Shown in pieces: positions 1-52,262 of a stretch of DNA of 64,000 nucleotides. Numbering within the stretch: position 1 is the stretch's first letter; every line of letters starts with the position of its first letter. The position numbers and the translations under genes are program-made. The notes beneath the pieces were generated by a model. It saw nothing but the letters and a program-made list of their open reading frames with translations, did no database searches and was not told where the DNA came from. The DNA comes from Heliocybe sulcata (Eukaryota; Basidiomycota; Agaricomycetes; Gloeophyllales; Gloeophyllaceae): contig ML213508.1 in assembly GCA_004369045.1 (NCBI GenBank), positions 711,748-775,747 of the forward strand, read 5' to 3'.

Positions 1-108
1 TGGGAGAATACAATGGACAGACCTGTTAGGCTAGCCGGTACGAGCCTATAGTCGGTGGCAGAAAAGATCAGTAGGCTCGGCATGCGCAATTCATGAGCTC
101 TGAAGAGC

Positions 109-1677
109 GCAATTCGGCTACTAGTAGCATGCGCTATGCGACAAGCAACGGAACTGCGATACGTTGGGTTTATAGTAGCAGAAATGGCGCTAACCTCAGA
201 ACGTATGAGTCATCAGCTCCGAAGGACACAGTTCCTATACTTGTTACATGCCACATGCGACAAGTAACGGAACTGCAGATACTTCGATGACGATTCTGAC
301 CAGGTCCCCAGTAGATGATCGTAGTACGTACCTCGCACACCGCTCGCCGTTCCACTACTCGTGACATGCTGTATGCGACAAGCAACGGAACTGCAGTATC
401 CTGAATTTTACTTCAGCAGTCCCGGCGGCCAGTAAAGTAGCCCAAAGACTCACCTGCAGACCCGTGAATTTGAGGCCTAATGTCTAACAGCGCCGAAGCA
501 TGCAGTTCCGCCACTCATGGCACGCCGTATGCGACAAGTAACGGAACTGCAATACTTCGAGTCTGCTTCTAGCCAGTCAGAGTATAGTAGCGAAGAAGGT
601 ACCCTGTGAAATACCAGCCCAAACATGTACGATCCGGCCGCACAATTCGACTTGTATGCAAAAAGCGACGGAAATACGATGCTCAAATACGATGCCGATC
701 GGTGGAGGCGGTCGGTGCAGGAGGGGACGATGACCTGTTGGTGAAGGCGCGCTCAATGACCGGCAGGGAACGCCGACCTGGCAGATCTGGAGCAGTATGC
801 GCGAGGTATACGCGTAGCCAGCTCCCATGATCAATGCTCAGTCGCAGAAACCGAGCCTAAATACGCGCCGACCACAACGGAGATCAGATTGAGTAACGTC
901 CAAGCTACACGTCACAGAAGGCTCGTACCGTTTCGGCAAAACAACAGGGAGGACAGTCGCCATGCGAAATCAAGACGCTTGAGTCCCACGTAAGAAGTGG
1001 CCCAGTCCTAAGGTTTAACAATAAGTGATGCCTCAGTATCAAGAGGCTCTTACCGTCTGTCAAAGCTATGACGGCGGTATGTGACCAAAGAGCACGGACC
1101 ATGACGAGGGCATCAGTGATTATGGGGCTGATAAGAGCTAGTGAGCCAAGCACTAGTATAGTTGCGGACAACACACCTTGCAGATAGGCAGGCACCCTCC
1201 ACCGGCTCCGCAGCGGGCAGTTCGGCTACATGGTGCACAACTTATGCGACAAGTAACGGAACTGCCATACTTCGAATCCGACTCTGATCAGCCGAGGGCG
1301 AGTACGGTAGCAGAGAATGCATTGCACGCATCGGAACCTCAGCCACCAGCGCGGAGAGCACAGTTCGGCTAATCGTAGCATGCTGTATGCGACAAGTAAC
1401 GGAACTGCGACACTTCGAGTCTGATTCAAGTCAGTCGCGGTGCAGTGACAGAAACTTATTGTGTCCAGCAGCTTCACCCAGCAGCACTGAAGCGCGCAGT
1501 TCGGCTACTCGTCGATGTGACATGCGACAAGTAACGGAACTGCGATCGTCCAGACGGCAAGTCCGATGGCGTAGCAGGCAGGTATAGACACTGGCCTCGA
1601 GATGGACTATCCATAAGCTCCGGAGTACACAGTTCGAGTACTTGTGGCATACTACATGCGACAAGTAACGGAACTGC
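109..1677. repeat. Array of imperfect palindromic repeats
   Basis: At least eight copies of a 22-bp core containing GACAAGTAACGGAACTGC (or GACAAGCAACGG...) lie at 136-157, 255-276, 373-394, 529-550, 1244-1265, 1387-1408, 1522-1543 and 1656-1677. Each is preceded by a left arm close to GCAGTTCGGCTACTCGTGGC, starting near 109, 228, 346, 502, 1217, 1360, 1496 and 1629. The left arm is an imperfect reverse complement of the core (about 18-19 of 23 positions), so each unit is a palindrome with a loop of a few bases. Copies recur every 118-156 bp. Several share a right flank like ACTTCGARTCTGA. A decayed copy lies at 656-677. The stretch 680-1200 has no clear copy. No reading frame is conserved across units, so this is probably not coding. 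Function is unknown: satellite, protein-binding array or transposon subterminal repeats are all possible. Confidence 0.85.
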
Positions 1678-2701
1678 GCTAGTTAGAATCTGACTCTGGC
1701 CGATAGACGCACCCCTAGATCAATAACTTCACACGCGCAATGCCGCTGCGTCGGTGGCCCATGGCATTATGTTGCGAGAAGTAAGTGGACAGCCAGGATA
1801 GATGGGTGAAGACGCTGAAGGTAGAGTGGGGGCCCAATCTGAAGCCCGACTTGATATATGCAGCAGCGAACAATAGAACGGCACGGACACTGAGCCGGAA
1901 AGTGCCACCGGGACGGCGGACCAATCGCAAGCATCGCTCGGACCTAGAGCGGGCGGTCCATCAAGGCGAGGCAATGGCACAGCCATACAGGGTCTGGCGG
2001 AGAATGAACTGCACAGAGACAATGACCACGAGGACGCGCCGAAGAGCCACAAGCGTGACAGTCATCAGAGAAGCGGCCATGTGTATCAGAAACATGGCCG
2101 AGGTTCCGATAAGCGCACAGCAAGCGGGGCTGTGACACTCGCGGATATAGGCTGCGTATGTCTGAATGACGACTTGCAGTGGTTTCTATGGTTTCTCTTA
2201 GGTTGCATAATGAGACAAACAACAGAGCCGGTGGCATCGGTCATGCAAGACAAGAGGATTGACTATCAAGCGACGCATCTTCTTCTCTTCCAGAAGGCGC
2301 CCGGGCAGGACGGGCGGGGTGTCGTGGTCGCCGTCTACGTCGGTACTGAGTATACTGAACATCTTCAACCATAGGATTGCAGCTCTCGAGTCCTACTGCC
2401 TACGGTTTGGAGTTTGCATGTCGCACAGCATGTAGCAGCAGAAACGGCATGGGCTTCACCTGGGGCTGGAAGCTGAACTTGGGCGATTTATGGCGATAAG
2501 AGAAGCGCCCCGCCACAAGTACTGTGCAGTGAGTCCATGTGGGTCCAAGAATGCCAAAGACCATTGTTCTACGTCAAGAATTCCTCTCATGCTCTTGTTC
2601 TACTGCTTAGTCTAGCTCTCAAACCCTTGTTCTGTCGTTGCCCAGGACTCATCCACCATCAAGTTCCTCTAAGCGAGTATGATGAGCACCTCAAGAAATT
2701 A
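1678..2701. other. Gene-poor stretch with decayed repeat units
   Basis: No convincing gene. Weak relatives of the upstream palindrome core are visible near 1767-1790 (TTGCGAGAAGTAAGTGGAC)  and 2208-2230 (ATGAGACAAACAACAGAGCC). The last 200 bases lead into the kinase promoter. Confidence 0.5.
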
Positions 2702-2709
2702 TATATAAG
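2702..2709 (+). promoter_or_regulatory. TATA box of the kinase gene
   Basis: TATATAAG lies 133 bp before the ATG at 2842, with pyrimidine-rich sequence between, a normal placement for a fungal TATA promoter. Confidence 0.55.
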
Positions 2710-2841
2710 GGCCTGCACCTGGGTCTAATCGTCCACCAAGCTCCCTGCCGACCCACACTCCGCAAGAACCTTTGCTTCAACCCTGCCTCTTGTCCAGAAC
2801 TCTCTCCTCGCTCCTCCTAGCTTTAGTCTCTGCCATTCAAA

Positions 2842-4181
2842 ATGGCCGACTTGCTGACGTCTCAGAGCATCAGACAATATAGTCTCGACAAGAATCTGTG
2901 GCCGACCTTGATGCAGCGTCTGCAGACAAAGGATAACGGTACGAAATACGTGGCGTACTTATACGACGTGCGTTCCCTCGTCCCACATCGGATTACGCCC
3001 GGTGCACTAACGCTTTTGCTCGCCTTCAGTATATAAAAAAAGAGCTGGCGTCCGACCTCAGGCTCCGCGGCGCAGCTCTGGTGCTCATGAAGGAAGTAGG
3101 ACAGCATTTCGACATATATCCCCCGCAGATCATGATTCAAGGTGCCGACATCGATCCAAACCCGTGTGGTGATGGCGGCTTCGCCGTAGTCTACAAAGGA
3201 CTCTACCAGGGTAAAGCAGTTGCAGGCAAACGACCGAAAGCCGACGGGCCGACGTTCGCCGAGCCACATCGCATGGCTAAGGTCCGCTCTCTCCCTCTTC
3301 AACGTCGAGTCAACGCTTACGGTTGCCATTCACGACTCAGATGTTTCGCCGAGAAGTGGCGATATGGTGCCTACTCGAGCATCCGTACATACAGCCCTTC
3401 ATAGGCGCACACGCTCTCGAGGGCGTCTCTGCGGTCCAAGCTGTCAGTCCCTGGTGCGAACGCGGTTCTATCAAGGCCTCGGAGCATGTGAAGACGTTGT
3501 CACAGGCTCACGTCAACCGATGGGTCAGTATCTGTTTTTCTCATTTGTTCCGCAACTGATCCTGGTACTACAAGATCTTCGAGATCGCGCAAGGTTTGAA
3601 GTACCTCCATTCGTGCGGAATCATCCACGGCGACCTTCGCGGGGTGAGTTACATTGTCTTCCGTCATGTCGCAAGGCTCACACTTTTACAGGACAACATT
3701 CTGATCTCTGATGACGGCAAGGCGCAGATCACCGACTTCGGCCTCGTGCTGTACACGGAGACAGTAGGTAAAGTTATAGGCACTACTTCCAAAGAACTCC
3801 AAACGGCTGGCGCTAGATCGTGGATGGCACCGGAAATCCTCGATCCGGAAAATATTGACAAATTCAGGCGAACCAAACCGACAGATATCTATGCGTTCGC
3901 TTGCACGATATGGGAGGTAGGCAGAATCTCACTCATCGAACGCACATTTGCTCTGATCCGGCTACTATTGCTAGCTATACATGGAAGGCGCTAAGCCGTG
4001 GCCGGGTAGGTTCTATCCTACTGGTTACAATGAAGTCATGAAAAGCAAGAGGCCCTCGCGACCCAGCGCCATGTCCGACGGCCTCTGGAATATTGTAGAA
4101 AGGTGTTGGGCCCAAGACCCAGCGGCAAGGCCGCACATAGATGCTGTGATAACCAGCCTTAGTTCTGCCAGGATCATGTAG
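2842..4181 (+). CDS. Tyrosine-kinase-like (TKL) protein kinase
   Basis: Six exons: 2842-2967, 3030-3281, 3341-3523, 3575-3643, 3692-3916 and 3975-4181. They splice to 1062 nt (353 aa). The start has good context (CAAAATGGC) behind a TATA box. Visible kinase elements: Gly-rich loop GDGGFAVVYKG (residues about 89-99), probable ATP-binding Lys109, catalytic loop HGDLRGDNIL (205-214), DFG (225-227) and APE (256-258). HGDLRG instead of HRDLK is usual in the large TKL kinase families of Agaricomycetes, so it does not imply inactivity. The first 80 residues match the helical leader often seen in that family. Predicted cytosolic, with no membrane segment; substrate unknown. Splicing across intron 2 (3282-3340) is the least certain part of the model. 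Confidence 0.85.
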
Positions 4182-5625
4182 ATACACTTGTCCCGTCGTG
4201 GGATGCTCTAGTGAAGTCTCGGATTCCTTGAAGTAGTCTTGCCAAGCCGCTCGAACGCCGTTTATATGAGAGATGTCCCCTTACTTTTCCATTTGTACTA
4301 CCGTTACTAGAGAGAATAACTTGTTTTCATTGGTCCCGTATTCCACAGCATTCATGTTTCCTCCATATGGCCTTGCGGGGTGACGACTACAAACAATGAT
4401 GCATCAAGCTTAGACGCGACACAAGATCCCTCACTGACCCACCTACAGAACTAACAAATAATGGATACCTTGTGCACAGGTATACCGATCCGCAAACAAT
4501 CGCATGCGTCTGCATCTGAGAGGATCACATCGCCCGGACTCGTCGAACGTTGGTACGTACCAGTTATGCGGCGCGCTGTAGAGGTCCCTTCTGTCGAGCG
4601 TCTTAGGGAAAGCCAGTGACTGCCTTTGCTCACGACAGACATTGGCGCCGACAGACTCATCGACGCCGAGTTTGGGGGCACTTCTGAGCAGAGTTGTAAG
4701 GAGGATCCTCAGAAGAGGCGGCGAGAGCTTTGACATAACGTACTGCGCACCTGCGAGTAGGGCATTCTGTGCTCCCTGCATGCGAGTCTTGAACGGAGAG
4801 ACAGTGATCGCAATCGCCTTTTTTTACAGCCGTGCACGATGCCTGGGTTAGTTCTGATCCTGCACCGCTAAACACGAGTTCGCGGACGTCGTATGGTACA
4901 CGAGAAGCGGGGTTTGGAAGAAAGCATCGGCGCCATATTATCCGGCGCATAGAATAGCGCCCGAGCACGCAGCGTCCGTGCATGTCACAACGTATGGCGG
5001 AGCTGGTGAACGTAGACACTTCATCGAGTACGGGCGCATTCTGTGAGAAGCATGGTGTTACTTGATCGTCTCGCCTCGCCCGCCTTTCCTCAAGTTATAA
5101 TACTGTTCGCCGGTGTGCCTTTGGAAGTGGCATGCATTGTCCGCTGCGGCGCTTCTGCGAGACGGGCATCCACCTGGTCCCGCAGAAACTCGTCTTACGA
5201 ATGAACAGACGTCCTCGTTCTGCCTTGAGACACGGGGAGGCTATGAGATACTCTTTTGTCTAGCCGTCTTGCACGACAATGATAGAGACAGGGAAGGGTA
5301 CCAAGCGGGTCAGCCTCATGCAGACGAGCCATCAGATCGAATAACGAGAGATCAAGCACTACATCTCAGAGACAATACTTTCAGAGGAGTTGCTCGGGTA
5401 CGCACGTAGTAAAGATAGTCACTGGAGCTGTTGCGCTGGTCCTTGTCAACGCAGAGCTATTTACTGGACACGCTATTGTCGACATCCTGGCATTGACTGG
5501 GTGTCTGGCCGTCAAAGGAGACGGTCGCTTTTCCAATAAGCATGCAATCTTTTGCCAGTGGTGCGTCCAGTACTAGAGGCAGCAATGACAGATGCATAGG
5601 GCCCTGAGAGGAGGAGAATCAGGTT
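4182..5625. other. Intergenic, no gene recognised
   Basis: Only short, compositionally random open frames. Neither strand gave an exon chain with consistent splice phase or a recognisable motif. Confidence 0.5.
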
Positions 5626-23995: not shown

Positions 23996-24361
23996 TTACT
24001 CCCTATCTGTGACACGCCGGGTCTCGGAAACATCCTCCTGCACTGCCCTAAGCTCCTGCTGCATATGTGTCACATCCTGCTGCACATGTGTCACGTCCTG
24101 CTGCAAACCTGCCACGTTCTCCTGCATGTTTGTCATATTCTGCTGCAGGTTTGTCACATCGTGCTGCAGGGATGCAAGCTGGTCCTTGATTACTGTGAAC
24201 TCGGCATGTATGCCAGCAAGCATAGGAGGCAGGACGTTATGTAGAGCCTGTGCTAAAGCATCTTGGAGACCAGGCGGCCCGTTAACTAGATAAGCAGTAT
24301 CAGCAGTCGATAAAATGCCACCATGGGTCACACATACGTGCATTATCGATGTCTCGCTCAT
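23996..24361 (-). CDS. Coiled-coil protein encoded by 21-bp repeats
   Basis: A single open frame of 121 aa starting MSETSIMHVCVTHGG. After a hydrophobic/Pro stretch (NVLPPMLAGIHAEF), residues from about 65 form consecutive seven-residue units such as LQHDVTN, LQQNMTN, MQENVAG, LQQDVTH, VQQDVTH and MQQELRA. Hydrophobic residues at fixed heptad positions predict a continuous coiled coil. At the DNA level this is seven 21-bp units at 24033-24179. No known domain. Agaricomycete genomes carry many short heptad proteins of this sort. A role in oligomerisation is likely, but partners are unknown. The gene may continue through an unseen 3' exon. Confidence 0.5.
   Translation of the reverse strand: MSETSIMHVCVTHGGILSTADTAYLVNGPPGLQDALAQALHNVLPPMLAGIHAEFTVIKDQLASLQHDVTNLQQNMTNMQENVAGLQQDVTHVQQDVTHMQQELRAVQEDVSETRRVTDRE
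24033..24179. repeat. Seven tandem 21-bp units
   Basis: Units starting TCCTGCTGCA.. follow one another without gaps (24033, 24054, 24075, 24096, 24117, 24138, 24159). Each encodes one heptad on the minus strand. They are diverged from each other but keep exact length. Confidence 0.75.
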
Positions 24362-51172: not shown

Positions 51173-52199
51173 AGACGGCCACAAGCTATTACGATCTTGG
51201 AATACCTGTCAGCGAATAGAAAGATAGTGGAACGGCTTCAGAACCGGGAGATGGGCTAGACGCTTTATATGAACGGATAGGCTGGGACAGGGTGCTTGAG
51301 GGGTTTCTCGCCCTAACGGGAGTTGGATTTCAAATTCTCGCTTAGATCAGTTCGGAGAACTGGGCGATTCTCAGATTAGATCCCGCCTGTTCTCCCACAC
51401 GGCGCTTTGGATTTATGACCTTTCCTTTTCTGATGCGAAGAATAAATAGCCCTGGCCAGGTCTGTTACTTCATAATGCACGGACCTTTTATCTTTTGCCT
51501 GGATGGCAACCATGCTAACTTGCACGGATGCCACTCCCAACTCAAACACCTCACTGGACTGGCGTGCATGCAGAGAGACGTCAGTCGGTACCGAAGCTTT
51601 ACGAGATATCTTACCTGCTTGGAAACTATGAGAGGGACACAGGGTCCGGTTTCAGACCGTATCCAGCTGCGACAGCATGTCGAGTGTGCGATAATGTGCG
51701 AGTTCTCAGAACTGTTCGCAGGTTATCGCAGAAAGACATTCGCACCGCACCCTTCATAAACAGTTACCTAAGGCGGTATCGCGGGCCGCGCGTGTACCGG
51801 TTCCGGATTTGCTTCCGTTTCCTTCCTCTGATGCAGCGTGGTCTGCTGTATGTGTCTATGTATGGGTCGATATGCCCAAGCCGTCTTGCGAAAGACATAC
51901 GAAAGACTCATAATAAGTCTATGGTATGGCTTTCGCAAGCTATATGAAAGGAACTCAGCTCACCGGTCATCCTGGCTTCACACATTGAAATCCTGCCAGT
52001 TTGCAGCTGCCACCTGCACCGATGGAGGATCAGGGCCGTTCGCGAGCCACACTAGGTTCCGTCACTGTCAGGCTTCCTTTTCGGAACCAATCAGCAAAAT
52101 AAACAAAACTCGACATTACTTCATTGCATCCGTAAGTCATGGCGACACACGTGATTAGGACACTTTATCGTGGCGCGAAAAATAGAAGGTGCCTCCCAA
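51173..52199. other. Intergenic, no gene recognised
   Basis: Short frames only. The first part is upstream sequence of the velvet gene. Confidence 0.45.
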
Positions 52200-52262
52200 G
52201 TGAGAGATGGATGTTCTTGGGGAACTACTTGGAGTGATTCCCCAAGAACATCCATCTCTCAC
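52200..52262. repeat. Perfect 23-bp inverted repeat (hairpin)
   Basis: The arm 52200-52222 (GTGAGAGATGGATGTTCTTG...) is an exact reverse complement of 52240-52262, with a 17-base loop (AACTACTTGGAGTGATT). No gene overlaps it. Transcribed, it would fold into an uninterrupted 23-bp stem with a small loop. That is compatible with a small-RNA precursor, a miniature element core, a terminator-like structure or a protein-binding cruciform. Confidence 0.9.

Follow-up and report, generated by a model that had tools for sequence, protein, structure and literature searches.

The array of spaced palindromes found near the left end of the window (the whole stretch of DNA that was analysed, 64,000 nt, C6:711748-775747) almost certainly arose by inverted duplication of the end of K0, an intact protein-kinase gene on the plus strand of the same contig (C6:691748-693169), about 18 kb from the array. 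It is likely that the array has been selected as an RNA hairpin of the minus strand and that it is or was transcribed, and we consider it probable that it forms a tandem milRNA- or hpRNA-like cluster with present or recent silencing of K0. The assembly comprises 31.6 Mb in 51 contigs; a 1,3-beta-glucan synthase, a velvet domain and short introns agree with a fungal host.

The 20-nt core of the repeat starts at positions 138, 257, 375, 531, 1246, 1389, 1524 and 1658 of the window, six times in its exact form and twice with one mismatch. A search of the window at up to three mismatches returned these eight copies and no further ones; shuffled windows contained 0.02 copies on average, and none of 100 shuffles reached eight. 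Each core is part of a spaced palindrome of 49 bp (48 bp in one unit), in which two arms of 22 nt each (21 nt for the left arm of unit 7) enclose a loop of 5 nt. The preliminary description is borne out with regard to the eight copies, to their extent from 109 to 1677 (the first unit begins at 109 and the last one ends at 1677), and to the palindromic units of about 50 bp with a spacer of a few bases. The period of 118 to 156 bp which it gave is correct for most of the core-to-core spacings (119, 118, 156, 715, 143, 135 and 134), the exception being the interval of 715 bases, which contains one decayed copy. The features of this region are, in window coordinates:

109..157, minus strand, hairpin unit 1: left arm 109-130, loop 131-135, right arm 136-157; right arm 21/22 against the consensus
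228..276, minus strand, hairpin unit 2: right arm 255-276, 22/22
346..394, minus strand, hairpin unit 3: right arm 373-394, 21/22
502..550, minus strand, hairpin unit 4: right arm 529-550, 22/22; of all units the one with the strongest minus-strand fold (-48.2 kcal/mol, z -7.5)
656..677 (about), minus strand, decayed right arm: the 20-nt core carries 6 mismatches
1217..1265, minus strand, hairpin unit 5: right arm 1244-1265, 22/22
1360..1408, minus strand, hairpin unit 6: right arm 1387-1408, 22/22
1496..1543, minus strand, hairpin unit 7: left arm one base shorter; right arm 1522-1543, 22/22
1629..1677, minus strand, hairpin unit 8: right arm 1656-1677, 22/22; the only unit in which the plus strand folds slightly better
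1864..2094, no strand assigned, stretch right of the array, common to the right side of the sister array (C6:705724-705978): 94% identity over 34 bases, 82% over 190
2842..4181, plus strand, kinase gene K3, a K0 paralog downstream of the array: bounds read by eye, approximate

Leftward, the array does not stop at the edge of the window: degraded units, and among them a fairly good one (711441-711489), can be followed to about C6:711225. The stretch at 1864..2094 could possibly represent the promoter side of a minus-strand transcript. The spacing of the units keeps no reading frame, in line with the initial remark that no frame is conserved, and the longest stop-to-stop frame in positions 1-1700 corresponds to 106 aa; we rejected the reading of the array as a coding repeat. 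Its resemblance to coding sequence is real, since it is derived from a K0 exon.

The gene model of K0 has five introns of 48-59 nt and yields a protein of 386 aa, the frame upstream of the start codon having stops; the kinase domain was recognized as Pfam PK_Tyr_Ser-Thr (E 1.4e-29). Outside the array, the core is found with at most one mismatch at a single locus of the assembly, C6:693028-693047, in a K0 exon. The complete 22-nt site in K0 is C6:693026-693047, and the segment from 693026 encodes MRQVTEM..APELL. The right arms agree with K0 in 21 of 22 bases in six units and in 20 of 22 in two, and one position of K0 differs from the conserved arm of every unit. This K0 segment is also where the left arms and the flanks align, on the opposite strand, and the left arms match it more loosely. 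The alignment of both arms begins next to the loop, no more than three bases from 693026, and this is the geometry of an inverted duplication. The homology to K0 goes beyond the guide, reaching 55 bases in the best units and being shorter elsewhere, as in target-derived MIRNA or hpRNA loci. Moreover, the 3' flank of K0 is present in inverted orientation at two places. One copy, C6:710350-710708 (72%), precedes the first degraded unit of the big array on the left by about 0.5 kb, and the other, C6:705098-705251 (82%), is separated from the left end of the sister array by only 7 bases. A third copy of this flank was not among the matches listed in the assembly search. If the copy at 710350-710708 were colinear with K0, the K0 site should lie near 711508, and the nearest unit is that at 711441-711489. 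Thus, with the K0 3' flank lying inverted on the left of both arrays, the origin of the array by duplication of K0 in inverted orientation is well supported.

The conservation of the two arms is unequal. On the plus strand, the right arm reads ATGCGACAAGTAACGGAACTGC, and it is present with 22/22 bases in six units and with 21/22 in two. Differing cells were counted in the eight units over majority-scored columns and amounted to 2/176 in the right arm, 22/159 in the left arm and 100/406 in the flanks; columns lacking a clear majority were dropped from these counts, so that the flanks look more conserved than they are. The difference between right and left arm is significant with cells taken as independent (Fisher p=3e-6), and it qualifies the preliminary description, in which both arms were called conserved. 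The near-invariant block is 22 nt long and equals the arm antisense to K0. Hence it is the guide-like arm, antisense to K0, that is more conserved than the star arm, as is the case for target-derived MIRNA or hpRNA. One fixed and one drifting arm would be expected of a microRNA-like duplex with one guide arm, unlike a palindrome for a dimeric protein. Constraint on both half-sites, as in a protein-binding dyad, was not observed; a non-dyad site in the right arm is still compatible with these counts.

The nature of the changes in the arms points to the minus strand. When transitions were scored by the majority base, the arms showed 14 (12 left, 2 right) of the kind that keeps a G.U pair in the minus strand and none of the other kind, compared with 27 and 33, respectively, in the flanks; the bias is significant by cell (Fisher p=8e-5) and by distinct column change (8:0 in the arms, 19:20 in the flanks, p=0.007), the cell-based p-values being too strong because the copies share ancestry. 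Scoring against the pairing partner gave 24 minus-type G.U cells, 2 plus-type cells and 18 mismatches for the main eight units; expressed as distinct changes, the ratio is 10:1 for these units (p=0.03), and it becomes 10:2 (p=0.07) when all ten scored units are included. In the minus strand 155 of 175 cells form standard pairs, in the plus strand 133 of 175 (131 Watson-Crick and 2 G.U). The minus-strand fold is the stronger one in seven of the eight units by energy and by z-score, unit 8 being the exception. The minus-strand z-scores range from -2.2 to -7.5, and for each of the eight units only 0 to 5 of 200 shuffles fold as well, which means that the hairpins are more stable than expected by chance. 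Since the arm changes keep G.U pairs on that strand only, they argue for selection on the minus-strand hairpin. Two-sided compensatory change was detected in none of the 22 pairs, as would be expected with one arm fixed, and classical covariation is thereby unproved; two stem positions are mismatched, in 5/8 and 7/8 units. A strand asymmetry of mutation is conceivable, because the largest AT skew among 32 two-kb bins of the window (0.192, at 1-2000) lies over the array, although the flank transitions are balanced. The preliminary description had proposed a protein-binding site or a structure: the structure fits best, in the form of a minus-strand RNA hairpin with G.U-preserving transitions and stable folds, while a protein-binding dyad, which should constrain both half-sites alike, is less likely with one arm fixed and the other drifting.

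Hairpins of comparable size are found outside the array as well. A scan of 124 kb for 22-nt arms with at least 15 Watson-Crick pairs revealed 30 hairpins, nine of them within the 2.3-kb array. Twenty block shuffles of the 124 kb contained 16.2 such hairpins on average and 23 at most, and the 21 hairpins outside the array therefore correspond roughly to the number expected by chance. At 52200-52262 of the window there is a single near-perfect hairpin with 30-nt arms (93% complementary), a 3-nt loop and a fold z-score of -10 to -11 on either strand. With three mismatches allowed, the assembly contains no second match to its arm, and the hairpin may be either a pre-miRNA-like element or a young inverted repeat. 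About 0.3 kb away, at 51885-51939, lies another hairpin, the 27-nt arms of which are 85% complementary. Its z-score is about -5 for both strands, and it has no assembly match within three mismatches besides its own arms. A match to a gene is thus not automatic for a hairpin, since these two other good hairpins of the window have none in the assembly. At 24054-24168, the window also harbours a tandem repeat with a period of 21 bp (5.5 copies, 78% matches).

We propose the following course of events for the silencing of K0. The array would be transcribed from the minus strand, so that each unit would form a hairpin, and the invariant 22-nt arm (GCAGUUCCGUUACUUGUCGCAU) would be the 5' arm in this transcript, antisense to the K0 mRNA. 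Dicer would cut each hairpin, Argonaute would load the invariant arm, and the K0 mRNA would be silenced at the matching site C6:693026-693047, the tandem copies raising the dose. The arguments from strand and from complementarity agree, because the 5' arm of the minus-strand transcript is the invariant arm antisense to K0. Dicer_dimer domains are encoded at three places in the assembly, Piwi domains above the cut-off on C2, C6 and C29, and RdRP domains on C1 and C3. Several observations count against silencing of K0: the guide would mispair with K0 at its fourth base and starts with G, the loop of 5 nt is short, and only one target, K0, was seen in the own genome.

An explanation at the DNA level is unlikely, yet it deserves the first place among the alternatives. 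The array, located about 1.2 kb upstream of K3, could be a cis-regulatory element, with a protein that recognises the nearly invariant 22-bp core, or the dyad, and acts on the neighbouring K3; the similarity to K0 would then reflect origin only. In this case it is hard to see why one half-site is fixed and the other drifts. DNA binding also does not explain that the drift in the arms is solely of the minus-strand G.U kind, and 20-21 of the 22 positions of the conserved block have remained the same as in the K0 exon.

We consider it quite improbable that the array is a functionless, decayed tandem repeat of kinase-derived DNA, the cores of which are alike via recent local homogenisation or by chance. 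Degraded units do occur, both in the array (left end and gap) and in its sister, and the region is a tandem kinase-gene duplication. On the other hand, conservation is confined to one 22-nt arm with diverged sequence on both sides (2/176 cells compared with 100/406 in the flanks), homogenisation of repeated 22-nt tracts would be unlikely, and the G.U asymmetry would be left without a cause.

The sister array offers a comparison in this respect. It consists of three decayed units (C6:705258-705663) beside K1, and none of its three cores is intact. The three tandem kinase paralogs are located in the regions C6:706115-707732 (K1), C6:708309-710305 (K2) and C6:714439-716065 (K3, window 2692-4318); the K1 and K3 regions are 91% identical, K2 about 70%, and the gene family has expanded locally, with its members placed between the two arrays and next to them. 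The loss of all three cores, despite the 91% identity of the K1 and K3 stretches, suggests that cores decay here when they are not kept. At the same time, the decay of the sister array implies that such loci are dispensable, which has to be counted against a silencing function.

Similarly improbable is that the hairpins give rise to small RNAs with another main target, which could be another K0 allele, a foreign organism's RNA or, through chromatin silencing in cis, the K1-K3 neighbourhood. In line with this possibility, the single K0 mismatch to the conserved arm is shared by all eight units, the arrays adjoin K1 and K3, and trans-species milRNAs are mentioned in parts of PMC9757828. However, K0 is the only exon of the assembly having the site at no more than one mismatch, and it is the source of the array. 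K1-K3 contain no match to the 20-mer within six mismatches, and among 17 listed matches to a piece of K0 (E up to 10, the weakest maybe not kinases) the site is found in K0 only, the other 16 having at least 7 mismatches in 22 positions. No match to the complement of the core was found in viral contigs. Near K0, at C6:688434-688610 on the minus strand, there is a further kinase-like stretch with 44% identity to a piece of K0 and one TGA inside the match, which may reflect an intron or a pseudogene.

Finally, the repeated palindromes with a conserved core had led to the idea of subterminal repeats of a DNA transposon or of a dispersed satellite, which can practically be dismissed: the arms derive from a kinase exon, the core at up to one mismatch is confined to the array and one kinase exon of the same contig in the whole 31.6-Mb assembly, the 1.6-kb array stretch matches in the assembly only itself and two nearby places on this contig, and dispersed copies were not found. 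With up to three mismatches the assembly contains 13 forward and 2 reverse matches to the core, 12 of which fall in C6:693028-713424; a control search with the reversed pattern gave 5 matches, and the three matches outside C6 (one with two, two with three mismatches) were therefore taken as noise.

Other known elements were also considered. By eye, the array contains strings resembling what we take to be the A-box and B-box motifs, in the wrong order for a tRNA-like element, and ARAGORN (bacterial code) predicted no tRNA in the window. The array lies near the middle of the 1.45-Mb contig, and a centromere was rejected: the GC content is ordinary, and the TA/AT ratio of 0.96 is the top of 62 bins without standing apart. 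A search of Rfam with positions 1-3000 of the window gave no hit at E<=5.

On paper, the array resembles hpRNAs, target-born MIRNAs and milRNAs, and we regard it as a candidate for membership as milRNA or hpRNA. Among the Drosophila hpRNAs, hp-CG4068 provides the tandem precedent and has mus308 as its target. According to parts of PMC10317233, hp-CG4068 forms 20 tandem hairpins in D. melanogaster and 9 in D. simulans, with fast turnover of copy number; some hpRNAs bear an inverted-repeat fragment of an exon of the nearby progenitor gene (Dsim-hp58 is one gene away from CG17385), and Dicer dependence, siRNAs and release of targets were shown. The array shares with hp-CG4068 the tandem hairpin units at one locus, and with some of the other hpRNAs described in those parts the derivation from an exon and the vicinity to the source gene. 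It is unlike them in that the host is a fungus, the source and candidate target is a kinase, and the array is known from sequence alone.

The second group of relatives is found in plants, where MIRNA genes were, as Allen et al. reportedly described in 2004, born by inverted duplication of the target. As in target-derived plant MIRNAs, the homology of the arms to the target extends beyond the putative mature RNA, the mature arm is kept while the rest of the stem drifts, and the guide is directed against sequence coding for a conserved protein motif. Tandem hairpins are also known from the MIR482-MIR1448 polycistron, where they are part of one transcript, as stated in a portion of PMC3475693. 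The differences from plant MIRNAs are the eight-fold tandem amplification of the same guide, the non-plant host, K0 as the sole target seen, and a mature RNA that is putative.

Fungal milRNA loci, as far as parts of PMC9757828 describe them, have short hairpins with a small distance between the duplex arms, and the array is similar in these features; further common points are a conserved arm within the range of 19-25 nt, the missing Rfam hit, and the Dicer and Argonaute domains in the genome. Unlike the loci in those parts of PMC9757828, the array has a traced origin from an own gene and is tandemly amplified, and it was recognized by its nucleotide sequence only. The main text of PMC9757828 nowhere uses the words 'tandem', 'cluster' or 'duplicat'. 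Two 16-mers of the guide had no match in published papers in a literature search, and literature searches, mostly judged on titles and the openings of abstracts, returned no recognisable report of a fungal target-derived or tandem milRNA array.

It is tempting to speculate, with considerable reserve, that the array is a fungal hairpin-RNA array born from its own source kinase and policing it, so that the expanding cluster of kinases would have produced its own silencing locus. A fast turnover, suggested by the decayed sister array and the degraded units, may then parallel that of Drosophila hpRNAs directed against selfish or dosage-sensitive paralogs, and the locus would be convergent with the birth of plant MIRNAs and with the tandem hpRNAs of insects. 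The origins and targets of fungal milRNAs are poorly known, and here a single genome is enough to read off the origin, the strand, the guide and the candidate target site, the decayed sister array serving as an internal contrast. If our interpretation is true, the locus offers one directly testable guide-target pair, and fungi would join plants and flies as organisms in which silencing hairpins are born when their target is duplicated in inverted orientation, here in a tandem form.
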